A DNA stretch of 64,000 bases, taken from positions 1 to 64,000 of the forward strand of contig CAJQOH010000024.1 of assembly GCA_905479915.1 (NCBI GenBank), read 5' to 3'. Positions 2,566 through 20,296 of this stretch are shown piece by piece (the first letter of the stretch is position 1; each line of letters starts with the position of its first letter). The notes below the pieces were generated by a model, which saw only the letters and a list, made by a program, of their open reading frames with translations, made no database searches and was not told the origin of the DNA. The stretch comes from an uncultured Flavobacteriales bacterium. Lineage in GTDB: Bacteria > Bacteroidota > Bacteroidia > Flavobacteriales_E > Vicingaceae. A program made the position numbers and the translations under genes.

Positions 2566-4599
2566 ATGAAAGAATATTATTTAGCAGATAGAGAAATAAC
2601 TGATGATAGCGCAACTAAAACTATTAAGATCACTGTGCTTTTACTACTATTTTTTTATAGTATACTACCTTCCTTTGCCCAAACTAACCCTGGAGGCATT
2701 TCCACTAATATTCAATTATGGCTTAAAGCTGATAAAGACGTTCTAAATGGTGGGAGTTCTGCAACTGACGGAGATGCGGTGAATACATGGCAGGATCAAA
2801 CTTCAGCAAGAACTAATGATGCAACAGATGTTAATATATCTCCCCCTACATTTCGAAACAACACAAATGATTATATCAACTATAACCCTGTGGTTGATTT
2901 TGATGGAATAAATGATGGCCTTGATTTTGGAAATGATTACATCTTTTCAACTGGGACAGGAAGTCAAAATGGAATGACATTTTTCGCAATTGTACAACCA
3001 GATCCTAGTTCAGGCAAAATATCTCAATACATTACTGATTTTGGTCAACTAGCAAATGCAGGCTACGGATTTCATTATGGTTCAGAAAGATTTGGAATGC
3101 ATACACCAACAGATCATGGAGGAGCTGCATCAAGTCAATCTCACTCTTCAGATACATTAACAACCCTTGTTCGTTTTACTGTAGATTTTGGTACTGATCA
3201 AACCCTTACATTGAATGGTTCCTCCATACCTGCAAAAACTGATGCCATAACTTTAACTGCTTTAACAGCTACAGAAATAAATGAAAATGCTACACATGCT
3301 AATAACGGCCCATTTACAATTGGCCGTCAATCCAAAAACCTCTACTTAAGCTATAATAATGGTCGATTATTTGATGGAAGTATTGCTGAGATTGTTGGGT
3401 ATAATACTGATTTATCAACAGCATCAGGATCAGATATTTCACGAATTGAAAGTTATTTAGCAATTAAATACGGTATAACTCTTGATAACTCTTCTGGTGG
3501 TACTGCAGGAAATTATTTTTCATCTACAGGTACAACCATCTGGAATGCCTCACTGTCACCCTCTCATCATAATGATATTATTGGTATTGGAAGAGATGAT
3601 AATTCTGACTTAACTCAAAAACAATCTCATCAATTAGACGACTCTACCCGTGTATACATATCAACGCTTCACAGCTCCAATGCAGGAAATAGCGGCAGTT
3701 TTTCTACTGATGAACAGTTTTTATTTATTGGACATAATACAGCAGAGTTACAAAGTTTAGGCTCTTCTGAATTTCCTCCTGCACTTAACATTTACAGTAG
3801 AATAGAAAGAGAATGGAAAATAACTAATACAACATTTAATGGTACATTTTCACTAGACATTACGCTCAATACAAGTCCTATAAATCCTACAGACTTAAGA
3901 GTGCTGATTGATACAGATGGTAACTTTATTGATGCAACAATGTTTAGCCCAACTATTTCTGTTTCTGGAACAACAGTTACTATCTCAGAAATCTCAACCT
4001 CAATGATTCCAGTAAACTCTACAAGATATTTAACAATTGTATCATTAAAAGTCTCAACTCCTTTGCCAGTTGAATTGGTCAATTTTAATGCTACTGCAAT
4101 AGAAAATAATTCTGTACACTTAAAGTGGCAAACTGCATCAGAAATGAACAACGATTTCTTTACCATTGAGCGCTCAATAAATGGACAGGACTGGCAAGAA
4201 GTAACTAAAATTGAAGGTGCAGGAAATTCTTCGTCTTTGTTAAGCTATTCAACAACTGATAACAACCCTTATTCGAGAATATCCTACTACCGATTAAAAC
4301 AAACAGACTTTGATGGACAATTTGAATATTCTCAGATAAGAAGTGTCAATATTGAACAGTTAGATAATTCGAGAATAGAAATATATCCTAACCCAGCAAC
4401 TCATCAAATTACAATAAAAGGAAGTTCCAGTGAGTTAGAATCAATTGTTCTTTACAATACGCTAGGACAAAATGTGACTTCATTAATTAATCAAGTTATA
4501 ACTAATGAAACTCAATTGGATATTGATATGTCTAAATTGAATACAGGAATGTATTATGTGAAAACTAAAACTACCGCCAACAAGGTGTATAAGCAATAG
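2566..4599 (+). CDS. LamG-like secreted protein with T9SS type A sorting tail
   Basis: A 677-residue protein. The N-terminus has an unusually long polar stretch of about 20 residues before the hydrophobic signal core (about 23-36) and a probable cleavage near SFAQ. Residues about 45-300 resemble a concanavalin/LamG-type lectin fold (LWLKADKDV, W-x-D-Q, V-x-F-D-G-x-N-D). A middle region carries the HHNDIIGIGRDD motif common in flavobacterial surface proteins. Residues about 503-590 form a fibronectin-like domain (LPVELVNFNA, YYRLKQTDFDGQFEYS). The last about 75 residues are a Por_Secre_tail (IEIYPNPA, GMYYVKTKT), the type A T9SS signal. It starts 35 bp after the upstream gene. The next gene is a paralogue with an almost identical 3' end. 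Ligand unknown. The domain call is firm; a carbohydrate-binding role is inference. Confidence 0.88.
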   Translation: MKEYYLADREITDDSATKTIKITVLLLLFFYSILPSFAQTNPGGISTNIQLWLKADKDVLNGGSSATDGDAVNTWQDQTSARTNDATDVNISPPTFRNNTNDYINYNPVVDFDGINDGLDFGNDYIFSTGTGSQNGMTFFAIVQPDPSSGKISQYITDFGQLANAGYGFHYGSERFGMHTPTDHGGAASSQSHSSDTLTTLVRFTVDFGTDQTLTLNGSSIPAKTDAITLTALTATEINENATHANNGPFTIGRQSKNLYLSYNNGRLFDGSIAEIVGYNTDLSTASGSDISRIESYLAIKYGITLDNSSGGTAGNYFSSTGTTIWNASLSPSHHNDIIGIGRDDNSDLTQKQSHQLDDSTRVYISTLHSSNAGNSGSFSTDEQFLFIGHNTAELQSLGSSEFPPALNIYSRIEREWKITNTTFNGTFSLDITLNTSPINPTDLRVLIDTDGNFIDATMFSPTISVSGTTVTISEISTSMIPVNSTRYLTIVSLKVSTPLPVELVNFNATAIENNSVHLKWQTASEMNNDFFTIERSINGQDWQEVTKIEGAGNSSSLLSYSTTDNNPYSRISYYRLKQTDFDGQFEYSQIRSVNIEQLDNSRIEIYPNPATHQITIKGSSSELESIVLYNTLGQNVTSLINQVITNETQLDIDMSKLNTGMYYVKTKTTANKVYKQ

Positions 4600-4776: not shown

Positions 4777-6567
4777 ATGAAGAAAACAATTTTAATTATA
4801 GCTTTAATACTACCCGCCTTAATAACATTTAGCCAAACAACCTACTATCCTGGTGGTTTAGGATCGACTGATTTACAAGTTTGGTTTAAAGCGGATGCTG
4901 GCATCAATTATGGGACAGCTCCAGATATCTCTTCTTGGAATGATCAAAGTCCAGTAGGGAATGATGTGAGTCAAGGAAACACTAACTGGAGGCCTTCTTA
5001 CAACGCTAGCTTTACCAACGGGATGCCTGGTGTTGAGTTTAATGGAAGCGATGAGTGGTTAGTGACAACAACTTCTCCTGGTAATGGAATATTTAGTCCA
5101 GATGGCGCCATGTTTCTTGTTGTAGAAAACCAATCATCAGGGAGTAGTTGGCGAGGTATGCTAACACAAGGAAGAGATGTTGGTCCATGGTGGGGCTTGT
5201 GGACGAACCCAAACTGGATATTTGGTTCACTTGGATCAAACTCAAGTGGAGGTGCAACAGGTAGCTCGCCAACTATATTAAGTGGTGTACAGCAATCAGG
5301 CACTAACAATAAAAACATATATGTTAATGGGGCTAACATGAACTCTCATAATTCTATTAGTTCAGGAAATACTGCACAGATGGCAGTAGGAAGGGCTCTG
5401 GGTTTAAATGAATATTTTGATGGCTTAATGGGGGAAGCTCTTGTTTACGATGAGTATTTGAATAATAGCAAAAGAACTTTAGTTGAAAATTATTTAAATG
5501 CTCGTTATAACATTACTATTTCTAATGATAAATATGCACAACCAAGTGCAACTACATTTACGTCTGATTTGGTAGGTATTGGACGAGAGAGTGGCTCTGA
5601 TAATTTTACTACATCTGGCTCAAGTGGGGGTCTAATTATTGAAAACTCCTCTTTTCTCCAAGATAATGGGGACTATATTTTAGCAGCTTACAATGGTTCT
5701 TCTGTTTCACGAGATACAACTTCTTCAAATATAAGTAGTAGTACAGTTTTAAGATGGGACAATGATTGGTTTGTGGATGTAACTGATGTAAGTAGCAATG
5801 GAGGAGATGTTATAATAACATATGATTTTAGTGACTTTAGAGCTGGAAATATAGGTGTTGATACAAACTATCAATTACTCTATAGGGCTTCAACTGGTGC
5901 CACTAATTTTACAGAGGTATCTGGAACTATGATAAGTAAATCTGGAGATCAAGTTAGTTTCACCGTTGATGCAAGAAGTTTATTAGATGGTTATTACACG
6001 CTTGGAAGTTCCAACACAAAGGAAAGTCCTCTCCCTATTGAACTTTTAAAATTCACTGCGGTACTTGTTAATAATGAATATGTACAATTAAAATGGACTA
6101 CCTCTTCAGAAATAAACAACGACTATTTTTCAATAGAAAGATCATTAAATGGCTATGAATGGAAAGAAATAAAGCGAATTAATGGTGCTGGAAATTCTTC
6201 CTCCCTATTAAGTTACTCAAAAGTTGACAATAACCCATACGATGGAGTTTCATACTACCGCCTAAAACAAACCGATTTTGATGGTCAATTTGAGTATTCT
6301 CAAATCAAAAGTGTAAATATTGAACAGTTAGTAAACTCGAAAATTGAAGTATACCCTAACCCAGCAACAAATCAAATTACAATAAAAGGAAACTCCAATG
6401 AGTTGGAAGAAATTGTTATTTACAATACATTAGGACAAAATGTGACTTCATTAATTAATCAAGTTATAACTAATGAAAGTCAAGTGGTTATTGATATGTC
6501 TAAATTGAATACAGGAATGTATTATGTGAAAACTAAAACTACCGCCAACAAGGTGTATAAACAATAG
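4777..6567 (+). CDS. LamG-like secreted protein with T9SS type A sorting tail (paralogue)
   Basis: A 596-residue protein with a standard signal peptide (cleavage after ITFSQ, about residue 20), a LamG/concanavalin-like domain at about 25-245 (LQVWFKADAGI, V-E-F-N-G-S-D-E-W), the same IGRESGSD middle motif as its upstream neighbour, a fibronectin-like domain at about 415-505 and a Por_Secre_tail at about 515-596. It should be exported by T9SS after Sec transport. The two N-terminal halves are clearly diverged while the tails are almost the same even in DNA, which points to tail conversion or recent duplication. It is shorter than its neighbour, mainly in the central region. Substrate or ligand is unknown. 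Confidence 0.88.
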   Translation: MKKTILIIALILPALITFSQTTYYPGGLGSTDLQVWFKADAGINYGTAPDISSWNDQSPVGNDVSQGNTNWRPSYNASFTNGMPGVEFNGSDEWLVTTTSPGNGIFSPDGAMFLVVENQSSGSSWRGMLTQGRDVGPWWGLWTNPNWIFGSLGSNSSGGATGSSPTILSGVQQSGTNNKNIYVNGANMNSHNSISSGNTAQMAVGRALGLNEYFDGLMGEALVYDEYLNNSKRTLVENYLNARYNITISNDKYAQPSATTFTSDLVGIGRESGSDNFTTSGSSGGLIIENSSFLQDNGDYILAAYNGSSVSRDTTSSNISSSTVLRWDNDWFVDVTDVSSNGGDVIITYDFSDFRAGNIGVDTNYQLLYRASTGATNFTEVSGTMISKSGDQVSFTVDARSLLDGYYTLGSSNTKESPLPIELLKFTAVLVNNEYVQLKWTTSSEINNDYFSIERSLNGYEWKEIKRINGAGNSSSLLSYSKVDNNPYDGVSYYRLKQTDFDGQFEYSQIKSVNIEQLVNSKIEVYPNPATNQITIKGNSNELEEIVIYNTLGQNVTSLINQVITNESQVVIDMSKLNTGMYYVKTKTTANKVYKQ

Positions 6568-6573: not shown

Positions 6574-6725
6574 GCGGGTTGTAACTGCTCATAAACAGAC
6601 CGTTATTGGTGGTAATAAAATTAAACGGTAAACAAAGCAAGTTATATAGTGAAATATTAAAATGAAATTTAATAAACACAGTAAATACGAGTCAATACAA
6701 AAAAATGGATATACATACTAAAACT

Positions 6726-8003
6726 ATGAAAAAATATATAGTATTTTTTCTGACTTATACCCTTGTATGTCAAGGGTTTATTTACTCATAAGTTATTCCC
6801 CCTACCAACATAGGAACCTTGGGTAATAACCAAACCCCTACAGGTTGGGTATCGATAGGATCTCCTGAACTATCAAGTACTTCAGATAATTATTATACAG
6901 CTGGATCTGGATGGCTCAATGCTCCGCTTCCTAATTCTCCAGTAAATGGATTTTCTGTTTTTCCCGTAACAAGAGAGGGCTCACCTTTAGAGGGATGCCA
7001 AACAACTATTACGGGTTTAATTGCTGGATCTAGTTACAATATTCTCTATGAGTATATGTGGCCAAAAGGGTTTGGGCTATACGCTTCTAGATTTGATATT
7101 GGCCTCGCCAATCAAGGGTATATTGAAATTGACGGAGTGAAGACATACGTAAGCATTCATTCTGGCAATGGAGGGCTTGTTAACACTTGGTATTGTGGTA
7201 TAAAAACTTTTACTGCTAACGGACCTACAGCTACACTCAAATTAGGGATAGATGTTAGCGGATCAATCGACAATTCTGCTATAGCTTGGGCAATCTTTGG
7301 TAACACATCATCAACAATTAACCTAGGCAATGACACAACCCTATGTCAAGGTGAAACATTAGCACTTGATGCAACTACTCCAAATGCTACTTATCTGTGG
7401 CAGGATAATTCTACAAACCCAACTTTCAACGTTAATCAACAAGGAACATATTGGGTAGAAGTGACAGTAAACAATTGTAACTCTTCTGATACAATCCAAG
7501 TCAACTATACCCCTTCACCAACAATTAACCTAGGCAATGACACAACCCTATGTCAAGGTGGAACATTAGCACTTGATGCAACTACTCTAAATGCTACTTA
7601 TCTGTGGCAAGATAATTCTACAAACCCAACTTTCAACGTTAATCAACAAGGAACATATTGGGTGCAAGTGACAGTAAACAATTGTAACTCTTCTGATACA
7701 ATCTCTATTAACTTAAAAGATTGTCATTGTTCACTATACATTCCTAATTCATTCACTCCAAATTCCGACAATAAAAATGACCATTTTTCACCTATATTTG
7801 ATTGTGATATAACTGAGTACAACTTTACTATTTTTAATCGTTGGGGAGAACTACTTTTCGAGACTACAAACCCAACAAATTCCTGGAATGGAACATTTAA
7901 AGGAAAAATTTGTCAAACTGGCATTTTTATTTATTTATTAAAATATAAAGACAACAAGAATACACATCAAAAGAAATATGGACATGTAAACTTATTAAAA
8001 TGA
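6726..8003 (+). pseudogene. T9SS type B cargo gene interrupted by an in-frame TAA at the signal peptide
   Basis: From ATG 6726 (an in-frame ATG also lies at 6705) the frame reads a typical signal peptide, MKKYIVFFLTYTLVCQGFIYS, written here in pieces as MKKYIVFFLTY then TLVCQGFIYS, and then TAA at 6789-6791. The same frame continues VIPPTNIGTLGNN to the stop at 8003. Cleavage regions in this window usually end in Q, so TAA is most simply a C-to-T change of CAA (Gln). The downstream part is intact: an N-terminal domain of about 170 residues, two near-identical Ig-like repeats of 69 residues, and a CHU_C type B sorting domain (YIPNSFTPNSDNKNDHF, FNRWGELLFET). A TTG at 6819 could start translation but would leave no export signal. 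Recent nonsense mutation, recoding, or sequencing error all remain possible. Confidence 0.8.
7314..7727 (+). repeat. Two tandem 207-bp Ig-like domain repeats
   Basis: The unit starts with acaattaacctaggcaatga at 7314 and again at 7521. The encoded 69-residue modules (LGNDTTLCQG, YLWQDNSTNPTFNV, QQGTYWV) differ at only a few positions, which indicates recent duplication. Confidence 0.88.
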
Positions 8004-8016
8004 TGAAAAACTACCA

Positions 8017-8045
8017 CCAACAATCTCTATATTTCATTATGTTGG
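8017..8045. repeat. 29-bp hairpin direct repeat, left copy
   Basis: Starts CCAACA and ends TGTTGG (6-bp arms, 17-bp loop). It matches 8652-8680 at 28 of 29 positions and in the same orientation; GATTA is shared a few bases further right. The two copies flank the RDD gene. Confidence 0.8.
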
Positions 8046-8055
8046 CTGATTACTG

Positions 8056-8063
8056 TACATTTG
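8056..8063 (+). promoter_or_regulatory. Putative -7 box of the RDD gene
   Basis: TACATTTG fits the Bacteroidota -7 consensus TAnnTTTG and lies 47 bp before the ATG at 8110. No convincing -33 TTTG was seen. Confidence 0.4.
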
Positions 8064-8109
8064 GTTTCAACAAAACGAAAACATAGAGTTGTCGTTGGCA
8101 AACATAAAT

Positions 8110-8640
8110 ATGACAGATAAAAAAGTACCACTTGGACTACGACTTGGAGCAATGTTATTGGACCATTTTATAATGTGTTTCGTCATAGTCCCTCCATTGA
8201 TTGTTATGAGCCTAGTCGTCAGGTCAGAGCCGTTCGAAACTAAACCTATTGAAACTTTTGCTTTTTACCTCATGATGCTTGTTTATCTAAACAAAGATTT
8301 AGCGAAGGGGAAAAGTATATCCAAGAGAATACTCGGATTGAGAGTTATTGACCGTAAAACGGGCGTACCTGCAAGTGAATTCAAATGCTTCTTAAGAAAT
8401 ATGACTATCCCAATAATATGGCCATTAGAGGTTTTGATTTCGTTATTCTCACCAACACGCAGACTCGGAGACCTTATTGCTAATACAAAGCTGGAACTTT
8501 CTGAAAAGGAAAAAGCAACTTCGATTCTACAAGACCTTAAGAGTAAAAAAATAACGCAAACGACTTTCTTGACTTTGGTGGTTGGAATTATTTATATGGG
8601 GGGGCTTTGGTATCTTATGAATAATTTAATGGGAATATAA
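8110..8640 (+). CDS. RDD family membrane protein
   Basis: A 176-residue protein. ATG at 8110 is preferred over an in-frame TTG at 8089 because MTDKKVPLGLRLGAMLLDH is the classic RDD-family opening (R and D of the motif visible). Hydrophobic segments lie at about 18-40, 58-75, 100-120 and 150-172. The motif GKSISKRILGLRVIDRKTG between segments is also typical. RDD proteins are small inner-membrane proteins; some are reported as transporters, but most have no known function. The gene sits alone between two copies of a 29-bp hairpin repeat and interrupts a run of secreted-protein genes. Its codons look slightly more GC-rich than its neighbours, so acquisition as a cassette is possible. Function unknown. 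Confidence 0.85.
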   Translation: MTDKKVPLGLRLGAMLLDHFIMCFVIVPPLIVMSLVVRSEPFETKPIETFAFYLMMLVYLNKDLAKGKSISKRILGLRVIDRKTGVPASEFKCFLRNMTIPIIWPLEVLISLFSPTRRLGDLIANTKLELSEKEKATSILQDLKSKKITQTTFLTLVVGIIYMGGLWYLMNNLMGI

Positions 8641-8651
8641 AAGACGCTTTG

Positions 8652-8680
8652 CCAACAATTTCTATATTTCATTATGTTGG
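8652..8680. repeat. 29-bp hairpin direct repeat, right copy
   Basis: Second copy of 8017-8045, with one mismatch, 12 bp after the RDD stop codon. There is no T-run after the right arm, so it is a poor rho-independent terminator. Confidence 0.8.
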
Positions 8681-8782
8681 TAGATTAATAAATTGTTTTT
8701 CCAATTCATTTGGGGTATTTTGGGATAAAAAACTTAGCTGAAAATATATTTACAATACATTAATCGTACAAAATAAAATATT

Positions 8783-8826: not shown

Positions 8827-8830
8827 AAAG

Positions 8831-9229
8831 TGGAGTCGGAGGGACTCGAACCCTCGTCCAAACAAGGAAACGACAAGCTTTCTACGTGTGTAGTCTTTAA
8901 TTAATTGTTAGGCTCAATGCAGGCTAAAAACGACCAACAAAAAGCTTAGTCTTCTAGTATTTCACCGATAAATCGAAGCAATTTACCTAGCTAGTTCAAA
9001 ATTATGAATCTCTAAGCCAACAGTTAATGAACAGAACTGTTGAGAGAATAATGGTTCCGCCACCTAGTGGCTGGAATTAAGCTAATCAGACTGAGTCTGG
9101 ATTATGCAGCCATTGCATAGTTATTTTCGCCAATTAGCGATTTGTGAACCGAGATTAACGAGCAAATTCACAACGCTCGACACGCTTACAGGCCAAATTC
9201 ATCTTGCTGTCAAAACCAAAAACGACCCC
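8831..9229 (-). ncRNA. ssrA: Transfer-messenger RNA (tmRNA)
   Basis: Both ends of the tRNA-like domain are visible. The 5' strand GGGGTCG (9229-9223) pairs with CGACTCC (8838-8832), with one G-U pair. The T-arm GGTTCGAGTCC is next to the 3' end, and the discriminator base is A at 8831. CCA is not encoded and must be added. The tag frame is at 9131-9102: GGC GAA AAT AAC TAT GCA ATG GCT GCA TAA, giving GENNYAMAA, close in pattern to Bacteroidota tags ending in ALAA or AMAA. Length is 399 nt, normal for one-piece tmRNA. It rescues ribosomes stalled on broken mRNAs together with SmpB and tags the peptide for proteolysis. It is followed by its own terminator and preceded by a TATCTTTG promoter box about 30 nt upstream of the mature 5' end, leaving a short leader to be trimmed. 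Confidence 0.97.
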
Positions 9230-9314: not shown

Positions 9315-10526
9315 ATGAAGATTGGCGTAATTAAAGAAGGAAAAACTCCACCAGACGAAAGAGTACCGTTATCTCCTGCTCAATGCAAAGAGATAACAGA
9401 AAATTTCCCTTCTGTCAATTTAGTTGTTCAAAAGAGTGATGTTAGAAGATTTAAATCTGAAGAGTACGCAAAAAATGGAATTGAACTGGTAGATTCTGTA
9501 GATGATTGTGATGTTTTATTAGGAGTTAAAGAGGTTCCTATCGATCAATTAATTCCCAACAAAAAATATTTTTATTTCTCTCATACCACAAAAAAACAAC
9601 CTTACAATAGAGATTTACTAAAAGCAATGTTAGATCATAACATTACTATGGTAGATTATGAAGGCCTAACAAACGAAAAAGGAATGCGTTTAATTGGGTT
9701 TGGAAAGTATGCTGGCATTGTTGGATGTTACAATTCGTTTTATACTTATGGAAAACAAACAGGTTCTTTTGATTTAAAAAGAGCTTATTTATGTGAGGAT
9801 AGAGCAGAAATGGAAGAAGAATTAGCTAAAATAAAACTACCTAACAATTTTAAAATTGTTACTACAGGTGGTGGTAGAGTTGCTTCTGGAATTATTGAAA
9901 TATTAAATAAAATTGGCCTCAAAAAAGTTTCATCAACAGAAATTTTAGAAAACGATTTTAATGAGCCTGTATTTGCTCAATTATTAGTTACTGATTATTA
10001 TAAAAAACCAGACAATTCTAAATTCGAAAGAAGAGACGTATACAACAACCCTCAAGATTTCGAAAGAGATTTTATGAAGTTTGCAAAAACTGCTAACATG
10101 TATATCTCTGGTCACTTTTGGGATAAAAATGCTCCTTATATCTTTACAAGAGAAGATGCAAAACACCCTGATTTCAAAATAAAAACTGTAGCTGATATCA
10201 GTTGTGATATTGATACTGCAATTGCTAGCACTATAAAACCTTCAACGATTGTTGATCCTATTTACGGATATGATGCACAATCTGAAAGTGAAGTTTCTTT
10301 TGATGCAGAAAATGCAATAACGGTTATGGCTGTAGATAATTTACCTTGTGAGTTACCAAAAGATGCTTCAGATGATTTTGGAAGAGAATTTATTGACAAA
10401 ATTCTTCCTCATTTAATAGATGATAAACAAGGAGTTATTGATAGAGCAACGATTTGTAAAGACGGAGATTTAACAGCTCATCATGAATTTTTAAGAGATT
10501 ACGTTAACGGAGAAGTTACAGCCTAG
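9315..10526 (+). CDS. NAD(P)-dependent amino-acid dehydrogenase-like protein (alanine DH/PNT N-domain; saccharopine DH-like)
   Basis: A 403-residue protein. The opening MKIGVIKEGKTPPDERVPLSP is the alanine dehydrogenase/pyridine-nucleotide transhydrogenase N-terminal domain (K-E and R-V-P/A-L motifs), about 1-130. A dinucleotide-binding loop follows at about 183-200 (VTTGGGRVASGI). The C-terminal part (STIVDPIYGYDA, AVDNLPCELPKDASDDFG) resembles lysine-forming saccharopine dehydrogenase, so the substrate is probably an amino acid or its 2-oxo acid. Which one cannot be told from the sequence. The protein should be cytosolic. The gene has its own promoter box and stands alone. Its last 11 bp overlap the 3' end of the convergent deacetylase gene. 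Confidence 0.82.
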   Translation: MKIGVIKEGKTPPDERVPLSPAQCKEITENFPSVNLVVQKSDVRRFKSEEYAKNGIELVDSVDDCDVLLGVKEVPIDQLIPNKKYFYFSHTTKKQPYNRDLLKAMLDHNITMVDYEGLTNEKGMRLIGFGKYAGIVGCYNSFYTYGKQTGSFDLKRAYLCEDRAEMEEELAKIKLPNNFKIVTTGGGRVASGIIEILNKIGLKKVSSTEILENDFNEPVFAQLLVTDYYKKPDNSKFERRDVYNNPQDFERDFMKFAKTANMYISGHFWDKNAPYIFTREDAKHPDFKIKTVADISCDIDTAIASTIKPSTIVDPIYGYDAQSESEVSFDAENAITVMAVDNLPCELPKDASDDFGREFIDKILPHLIDDKQGVIDRATICKDGDLTAHHEFLRDYVNGEVTA

Positions 10527-11457
10527 CAATTTTATTCTTTCCGATCATTTCCTTTATAAGATAGTATACATATTCATTCTTAATGATCGCTTTACCTGAG
10601 CAATTGGTTTCCATTGCAATACGCTGTAAATGATTTTTAGCAGCATCTTTTTTCAATCCTGCACCACCAAAAGTAATATCAGTTTGATTGTATATTTTAT
10701 CAAAAAAAGCCAATGAAACACCATCATCTGTAAAAGGAAAAGAAAAAGCACTGTAATCCAAACCAAATTGAGAAGTAATCATTTTAACACTTTCATTCGT
10801 CTGAACCAATTGTTCTTCTAAACTTATCTCCTTATATAAAGGGTGATTTTTACTGTGTGCTCCAAATGTAATACCATCACCTATAAGCTCTTTAATTTGC
10901 TCGGAAGTTAAATAAGGAGATGCCTCTTTCAAATAGGCATCAAAATCAATTTGATTCAACAACGCCAATTCATCCAAATGTTGTTCCTTACTATAAGGTA
11001 TAGATAAAATGGATTTATCTTTCAACTTATCAAACAAGATACTTTCTTTAAACCTATAGAAAAGTTGTTTATTGTCAATAAAATCTGAATTTAAAAAAAC
11101 CGTTGCATGCACCTGCTTCTCTTTTAATATAGGCGCAACAACATCATAAAATTCCCTTAACCCATCATCAAAAGTGATATGAAAATAATTCTCATCAATT
11201 TCTTCATCACTATCATTTAATTCAATCAATTGATGTAAAGAAATAGATTTGTAATGCGTTAATAAAAAATCCAAATCAGCCTTAAAAGATGTTATACTTC
11301 TTGATTGATAAAGATGTTGAATATGAATCGGGGTATTGTTTGCTACAGAATGATAAAAAGGCAAAACAATGTGCTGACCAGTTTTTCTAATCAAACCTTT
11401 CACACCATACAAGGGAGCTCCAATCTTAGAAATTGTTTTCGCTATTTTTTTTACCAT
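10516..11457 (-). CDS. Polysaccharide deacetylase (NodB-like) family protein
   Basis: A 313-residue protein. The NodB fold is marked by FHITFDDG (metal-binding Asp pair about residues 97-98), the HSKNH metal motif (H-x3-H) in the GITFGAHSKNHPLY region near residue 200, and FSFPFTDDG further on. Related carbohydrate esterase family 4 enzymes remove acetyl groups from sugars such as chitin, peptidoglycan or surface glycans with a divalent metal. No clear signal peptide is seen, so it may be cytosolic or membrane-peripheral and act on a precursor. It is convergent with the upstream dehydrogenase (11-bp overlap) and monocistronic as far as can be seen. The fold is recognised with good confidence; the substrate is unknown. 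Confidence 0.85.
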   Translation of the reverse strand: MVKKIAKTISKIGAPLYGVKGLIRKTGQHIVLPFYHSVANNTPIHIQHLYQSRSITSFKADLDFLLTHYKSISLHQLIELNDSDEEIDENYFHITFDDGLREFYDVVAPILKEKQVHATVFLNSDFIDNKQLFYRFKESILFDKLKDKSILSIPYSKEQHLDELALLNQIDFDAYLKEASPYLTSEQIKELIGDGITFGAHSKNHPLYKEISLEEQLVQTNESVKMITSQFGLDYSAFSFPFTDDGVSLAFFDKIYNQTDITFGGAGLKKDAAKNHLQRIAMETNCSGKAIIKNEYVYYLIKEMIGKNKIARL

Positions 11458-18787: not shown

Positions 18788-20296
18788 TTAGACCATTTTA
18801 AGCAATTCATTCACATATTTACTATTATTAGACAACCTTGGTATTTTATTTTGTCCACCTAACTTATTATTCCTTTTCATCCAGTTGTAAAAAGTACCTG
18901 GTTTAAGTTGATGTATTTCTGGTTTACCCAACACCAAATTATTGAATCGTTTTGCTTCATAATCAGAATTCAATTGTTTCAATTGAGTATCTAACACTTC
19001 AGAAAAATACTCAATATTTAACGGAGTCTTCTCAAATTCAATTAGCCATTCATGTTTACCCGTTGATTTATCCTCTAAAAACTGTGGAGCTACCGTATAT
19101 TCTTTAATAATTGAATCTGTTTTTTCACAAGCTTTAGAAAGTGCAACTTCCGTATTTTCAATAATTAACTCTTCTCCAAAAGCATTGATAAATTGATTTA
19201 TTCTTCCTGTAACCTTAATTCTAAATGGATTCAAAGAAGTAAATACAACTGTATCTCCTATTACATAACGCCATAAACCCGCATTTGTAGATATTACAAC
19301 TGCATAGTTTTTATGTAACTCAACATGCTCCAAAGTTATTGTTTTAGGATTATCAGAGTCTAGCTCAGAAACATCTATAAACTCATAGAAAATACCATAA
19401 TCTAACATTAAGAGCATTTCTTCAACTTTACTTTGATCCTGTAAACCAAAAAAGCCTTCAGTTGCATTATAATTTTCGTAATAATTCAGTTGGTTTCCTG
19501 GAGCCAACTTTTTAAACTGTTCTTTATAAGGTGAAAAATTTACTCCACCATGCATAAACAATTCCAAATTAGGCCAGATATCCAATATATTTTCTGTCTT
19601 ATTAATTTCAAGAATTCTTTTGAGCAACACTAAAGTCCATGAAGGAACCCCTGAAATATTAGATACATTTTCTTTTGCAGTAGAAACAGCCATCTTCTCA
19701 ATCTTCTCTTCCCAATTGTCCATTATTGCAATGGACATTTTAGGAACCCTACGCTGCTCAACCCACATAGGGAAGTTTTTCATAATAATTGCCGATAAAT
19801 CTCCATAATAAGAGTTATTACTAAAAGAATTAATAGCACTACTCCCTCCTACTACTAATACTTTTCCTAAAATCAATTTTGATTCAGGATGGTTGTTATG
19901 ATAAATAGACAATAAGTCTTTACCTCCTTTATAATGACAATCTATTAATGACTCTTTACTTACTGGGATAAATTTACTTCTACCTGTTGCTGTTCCTGAT
20001 GATTTTGCAAACCATTTTATATCCGTTGGCCACAATATGTTTTGCTCACCATGCTTAATTCTGATAATTTGATCCTTTAAACTTTCATAATCTTGTAAAG
20101 GAACTCTGGAACTATAGGTCTTATAATCTTTAATTGATTTATAATCATACTTCCTACCCCATTCGGTATTCTTTGCTTTATCGATCAAATCAAAAAATAC
20201 TTCATTCTGTACATCGATTGGATATTTCATAAACAACTCCATTTGATGAATTCGTTTTTTTATAATCCAAGAAAAGACCGAGTTAATAAGCACCAT
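18788..20296 (-). CDS. GH3 family (auxin-responsive GH3-like) acyl-acid amido synthetase homologue
   Basis: A 502-residue protein starting at ATG 20296; a TTG one codon earlier is less likely. The adenylate-forming GH3 pattern is clear: KSSGTATGRSKFIPVS (about residues 93-108, ATP-binding P-loop like), YYENYNATEGFFG (the acyl-AMP motif region), and YVIGDTVVFTSLNPFRIKVTGR (the GD-x-V/I and hinge). Plant GH3 enzymes join amino acids to hormone carboxylates via an acyl-AMP. Bacterial members are common in Bacteroidota but their substrates are not established. It should be cytosolic. It leads the minus-strand operon and has a TAACTTTG promoter box just upstream. The family call is firm; the reaction is inferred. 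Confidence 0.9.
   Translation of the reverse strand: MVLINSVFSWIIKKRIHQMELFMKYPIDVQNEVFFDLIDKAKNTEWGRKYDYKSIKDYKTYSSRVPLQDYESLKDQIIRIKHGEQNILWPTDIKWFAKSSGTATGRSKFIPVSKESLIDCHYKGGKDLLSIYHNNHPESKLILGKVLVVGGSSAINSFSNNSYYGDLSAIIMKNFPMWVEQRRVPKMSIAIMDNWEEKIEKMAVSTAKENVSNISGVPSWTLVLLKRILEINKTENILDIWPNLELFMHGGVNFSPYKEQFKKLAPGNQLNYYENYNATEGFFGLQDQSKVEEMLLMLDYGIFYEFIDVSELDSDNPKTITLEHVELHKNYAVVISTNAGLWRYVIGDTVVFTSLNPFRIKVTGRINQFINAFGEELIIENTEVALSKACEKTDSIIKEYTVAPQFLEDKSTGKHEWLIEFEKTPLNIEYFSEVLDTQLKQLNSDYEAKRFNNLVLGKPEIHQLKPGTFYNWMKRNNKLGGQNKIPRLSNNSKYVNELLKMV

Follow-up and report, generated by a model that had tools for sequence, protein, structure and literature searches.

The window, by which we mean the whole 64,000-nucleotide stretch that was analysed, comes from a draft genome of 74 contigs that is 97.5% complete. 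One of its genes carries a signal peptide, a stop codon and a long coding frame in direct succession. Behind it lie a repeat, a second gene, a truncated copy of the repeat and, on the opposite strand, the tmRNA gene:

6606-6614, plus strand: possible 5' boundary of a cassette-like unit, TTGGTGGTA, suggested by a 9-base complement
6726-6788, plus strand: signal peptide coding part MKKYIVFFLTYTLVCQGFIYS, 21 residues from ATG 6726
6789-6791, plus strand: in-frame TAA stop directly 3' of the signal peptide, as read in the window letters
6792-7310, plus strand: N-terminal domain, the first 173 residues of the mature frame, without Pfam or PDB match
7301-7703, plus strand: two Ig_7/PKD-like repeats, copies at 7301-7496 and 7508-7703
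7737-8003, plus strand: intact C-terminal sorting domain of T9SS type B (CHU_C / TIGR04131), closed by the natural TGA stop
8012-8099, plus strand: attC-like repeat directly 3' of the gene, matched by the repeat model over 8016-8099 (92 bits)
8110-8640, plus strand: RDD-family gene in the neighbouring cassette-like unit, its open frame listed from TTG 8089
8648-8687, plus strand: a further attC-like repeat, truncated (25 bits), 3' of the RDD gene
8830-9229, minus strand: tmRNA gene, right border of a segment specific to this genome

The TAA at 6789-6791 is in frame both with the ATG at 6726 (an alternative in-frame ATG lies upstream at 6705) and with the open frame closed by TGA 8001-8003. After it, 403 codons stand open in the same frame. 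In 1000 mononucleotide shuffles of this stretch the longest open frame was 177 codons, and none of the 1000 reached 403. The frame is a real coding sequence, native-like and not decayed, because among 194 segments of 300-600 codons its coding score of 0.70 per codon ranks at the 31st percentile. We saw no second lesion in the 403 codons after the stop. Thus, two claims of an earlier note on this DNA, that the frame runs continuously across the TAA and that the rest of the protein is free of decay, hold.

The N-terminal 173 residues found no match in Pfam or PDB searches, and a single-sequence AlphaFold model of this domain (pLDDT 34) was unusable. The two Ig_7/PKD-like copies that follow are 95% identical in DNA; away from their junction they differ by three changing and two silent codons, too few for a selection test. 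The sorting domain scores 60.5 bits with CHU_C (Pfam cut-off 27 bits) and 53.9 bits with TIGR04131 (cut-off 35 bits). The gene therefore resembles T9SS type B cargo in its sorting domain above the curated cut-offs, its Ig-like repeats and the signal peptide encoded upstream in frame with them. Unlike such cargo, it is split by the TAA between the signal peptide and the mature part. Judged by its sequence, the assembled allele is best described as a broken T9SS type B cargo gene, not a working one.

The 21-residue signal peptide is of a typical Bacteroidota type and ends in IYS. According to PMC5837995, signal peptidase I of Bacteroidota usually exposes a glutamine, the Q-rule. As in those substrates, the signal peptide of the window gene ends one codon before the Gln position; unlike them, the gene has a stop there instead of Gln. 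We surveyed the position in 758,018 bases of the same genome, consisting of the window and 37 stretches, a non-random sample inasmuch as the stretches were picked partly because their contigs hold sorting-domain paralogs. Among 197 signal-peptide-like ORFs called in it with a simple home-made rule, the +1 residue is Gln in 95, and the next commonest residue occurs 13 times. The Gln codon is CAA in 81 of the 95 and CAG in 14. Nine ORFs of the window itself fit a strict pattern of signal peptide plus Gln, a count that covers ORFs with Gln only. The earlier statement that most signal peptides in the window are followed by Gln agrees with these figures. The stop occupies exactly the +1 Gln site of Q-rule signal peptides, and the earlier reading of the frame is therefore sound.

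A signal-peptide-like peptide that ends at a stop and is followed by a coding-like frame was seen in eight rows at six places of the 758 kb sample, the rows being classified by eye with our own criteria. Among the six places only the window gene (score 281) is convincing by eye as a broken secreted gene, and it illustrates cleanly how a break can fall on the Q-rule position. We rejected locus L076, which by eye has a complete signal peptide of its own after the stop, and four further places, where the downstream frames, likewise viewed by eye, are short and score 19-68.

The N-terminal domain was found in one of 60 relatives and in one of 46 family genomes, both times in the genome of the window itself. 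Among 395 class genomes it matched five: itself and four partial, marginal matches with E values of 9e-4 to 6e-3. It was absent from the genome_contigs, viral contigs and plasmids searched, and no intact ortholog turned up in the 60 relatives, the 46 family genomes or genome_contigs. Going by these searches, the domain is lineage-specific.

To the right, the gene for a dehydrogenase at 9315 is present in 12 of 14 genus genomes. The tmRNA gene adjoins this dehydrogenase gene in eight of nine relative loci, the ninth being a short contig end. In five of the eight, a T9SS-like gene of about 360 codons lies left of the tmRNA gene, by eye unlike the window genes. The segment left of the tmRNA gene is thus specific to the genome of the window. 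As a separate observation, the dehydrogenase matches of two relatives (L057 and L060) each contain one TAA, probably where the alignment runs past the natural stop.

The RDD gene was found in one of the 14 genus genomes, again that of the window. Its coding score per codon is near zero, below all 194 comparison segments, which at 300-600 codons are longer. With such strongly atypical codon usage, the gene looks foreign.

Both genes are bordered by complementary sequences. The bases TTGGTGGTA at 6606-6614 are the exact reverse complement of 8012-8020, and a complement of nine bases was reached in none of 2000 shuffles; GTTGGCAAA at 8094-8102 is complementary to 8648-8656 (one of 2000 shuffles). 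Integron cassettes are laid out in this way, each unit beginning with bases complementary to the 5' arm of the repeat that closes it. The arrangement is seen in both units of the window and, elsewhere, in one of two clean tandem pairs.

The repeat itself is dispersed. Copies of the sequence at 8017-8045 stand behind the RDD gene (8652) and at two places in contig C25. When two mismatches or fewer were allowed, the repeat pattern gave 32 matches in six of the 14 genus genomes, and a reversed control pattern gave none. Its 20-base core occurs in 23 stretches of genome_contigs, 22 of them from Flavobacteriales or Vicingaceae MAGs and one from Shewanella; the last is probably a chance match (12.6 bits with the repeat model). 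Across 29 aligned sites about 84 bases are common between AAC and CGTT, and both flanks vary. Places of this attC-like repeat of about 90 bases are 8012-8099 and 8648-8687 in the window, 19684-19773 in L079, and L111-L153. Same-strand sites stand in tandem in the window (two, one truncated) and at L126, L131, L139/L114, L141, L147 and L151. Of 30 sites, 16 have an ORF on the same strand that ends at the repeat and 8 have one on the opposite strand, compared with 50 of 500 random places; sites less than 200 bases from a locus edge or below 40 bits were left out of the ORF and tandem counts.

Two 5' flanks recur before the repeat, one at L131, L142, L146 and L149 and another at L141, L144 and L151; one carries TTGTGCAACAGG, the other GCTGGGCACA or a close variant. 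It is as if these were shared cassette ends. In the window, the neighbouring T9SS type A genes at 2566-4599 and 4777-6567 have near-identical C-terminal ends; these include a run of 25 bases, the same at 4567 as at 6535, that is 84% like the downstream repeat arm. The end of contig C25 (L079, about 19880-20000, minus strand) and the start of contig C65 (L089) share sequence coding NLTKKVVGSITHNNFFLNNFYSVF, and a repeat probably broke the assembly there. As for the window gene, we hold with moderate belief that it lies in a cassette-like segment, a role suggested by the repeats, with the 5' boundary placed by the 9-base complement.

We then weighed these features against those of integrons. GTT is kept in 29 of 29 sites, GTT having been required by the site search; judged by eye, the bases that follow vary and often break GTTRRRY, the consensus of the attC right-end box. 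The hairpin of the repeat has a mean z of -2.3 on the bottom strand and -2.1 on the top strand, the bottom being the stronger in 13 of 29 sites. Among 16 consensus pairs, none shows two-sided changes. An integron integrase (TIGR02249) was sought in the 14 genus genomes and none exceeded the cut-off; the sub-threshold matches are split where, as we assume, the extra IntI segment would lie.

We can compare this with the attC clusters without integrase (CALIN) and the integron cassettes described in PMC9024848. The window repeat is like them in its length of about 90 bases with AAC...GTT ends, in the tandem, same-oriented arrangement at several loci and in the genes that end just before it. It is unlike them in lacking a consistent GTTRRRY box and a generally stronger bottom-strand hairpin, and integrons proper would also have an integrase, of which none exceeded the cut-off in the 14 genus genomes. 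The same paper reports from IntegronFinder 2.0 that complete integrons are rare in Bacteroidetes, with one in Salinibacter ruber. In the literature on Flavobacteriales integrons and nonsense T9SS alleles, taken at the level of titles and abstracts together with portions of PMC9024848 and PMC7370490, we met no description of the repeat.

The segment is cassette-like, not a proven integron. We do not file it as an integron because there is no TIGR02249 match above the cut-off in the 14 genus genomes, no overall bottom-strand bias, no two-sided change and no consistent GTTRRRY. A bolder reading is that the genus, which belongs to marine Flavobacteriales, carries integron-like cassette arrays bounded by a conserved attC-like repeat and a recombinase other than IntI, the broken gene being a silent, decaying cassette; this we regard as tentative and rather doubtful. 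If true, T9SS cargo would be traded as cassettes. Should the attC-like repeats mark real cassettes, there would be an integron-like trade of secreted cargo in a lineage where such trade has hardly been described.

We now propose that a T9SS type B gene was inactivated by one nonsense codon, the gene being part of a cassette-like segment that is lineage-specific, adjoins the tmRNA gene and is bounded by attC-like repeats, and we give this reading a probability of roughly two in three. It starts from what is observed at the locus: the stop, the intact frame on both sides of it, the sorting domain, the restriction to the own species and the repeats. The assembled allele would yield the 21-residue signal peptide only, and the cell-surface protein would not be made. 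Accessory cassette cargo may be lost at little cost, and because of this a nonsense allele could persist with the remaining frame still readable. From these features we infer loss of function, dispensability and an allele that is real in the population. The gene is like one-nonsense bacterial pseudogenes in its single internal stop within a continuous frame and unlike them in that no intact relative was found for comparison. By itself, a nonsense allele in a surface protein confined to one lineage is nothing unusual.

How old the break may be can be bounded loosely. Within the 403 codons 3627 single-base changes are possible, and 171 of them (4.7%) create a stop, so the frame can stay free of a second stop through a few per cent of neutral change. 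With indels ignored, it would escape a second nonsense codon with a probability of 57% at 1% neutral divergence and of 6% at 5%. The clean frame is compatible with a range that extends from one wrong base up to a few per cent divergence. It was earlier proposed that the inactivation is very recent: inactivation fits everything seen, but with this share of stop-making changes "very recent" is too strong.

The main rival to nonsense inactivation is that the gene is intact in most cells and that the stop came into the draft consensus through an error of assembly or consensus calling or from a minority strain; a mixed-population allele was among the earlier suggestions. We consider this clearly the less probable course, yet one to be taken seriously: the genome is a draft in many contigs, and 403 codons without another lesion look like an intact gene plus one wrong base. 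In addition, a second sorting-signal gene of the same genome has a similar isolated TAA. It lies on the minus strand at 11654-7977 of L102 (C1:1-20000) and codes for a choice-of-anchor L domain and TIGR04131 behind a Q-rule signal peptide. Its TAA at 11340-11342 is codon 105, after which the frame stays open for 1121 codons, with coding character on both sides. Alignments with its best relatives begin only at about residue 97 past the stop, or in a few cases at about 56-82, which leaves the stop codon uncovered. Such breaks are therefore not unique in the assembly. Nothing speaks directly against this rival, but such breaks are few: two against 608 dominant coding segments in the sample, a figure obtained by classifying 45 rows by eye with our own criteria, most of the rows appearing, as a group rather than one by one, to be GTG/TTG starts or natural gene junctions.

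The other readings are much less probable. Programmed readthrough of the TAA, yielding some full-length protein, was among the options raised earlier. A hairpin of -9.6 kcal/mol directly after the stop and the clean frame on both sides would suit it; this hairpin is ordinary, though, 3.6% of window positions being as stable, and TAA is generally the least leaky stop. Moreover, ARAGORN, run on 30 loci covering 31 tRNA places (those over the Rfam cut-off), found no UAA-reading tRNA and one Gln tRNA, with anticodon ttg. With no suppressor tRNA and no second convincing case of signal peptide, stop and coding frame in the 758 kb sample, where 95 ORFs carry Gln at the position, readthrough is very unlikely. 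Recoding at the +1 position was rejected on the missing UAA-reading tRNA and on those 95 ORFs with Gln there. A phase-variable ON/OFF allele, another option raised earlier, finds some appeal in that phase variation often acts on surface proteins. At the codon we saw neither a simple repeat nor an invertible segment, and point differences are not known to act as fast switches; with no machinery visible, this option is extremely unlikely.

Equally far-fetched is a reading of the 21-codon frame as a leader peptide with an attenuator, in which a terminator-like hairpin at 6759-6777 stands just before the stop. The region 6640-6830 does fold somewhat better than its shuffles (z -2.7), but one terminator-like site is within chance (1.2 expected in shuffles), and we rejected the reading on this count. 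Moreover, these 21 residues make a textbook signal peptide, and the reading frame runs on with no start of its own. Use of the downstream frame alone, from an internal start and for a non-exported protein, would be helped by the TTG at 6819, which opens a 394-codon frame. Against it, the first ATG comes 88 codons after the stop, and a sorting domain without a signal peptide leaves, to our knowledge, no route out of the cell, so that we think it most improbable. Annotation by open frames would nevertheless name this 394-codon part, from the TTG, as an unexported protein.
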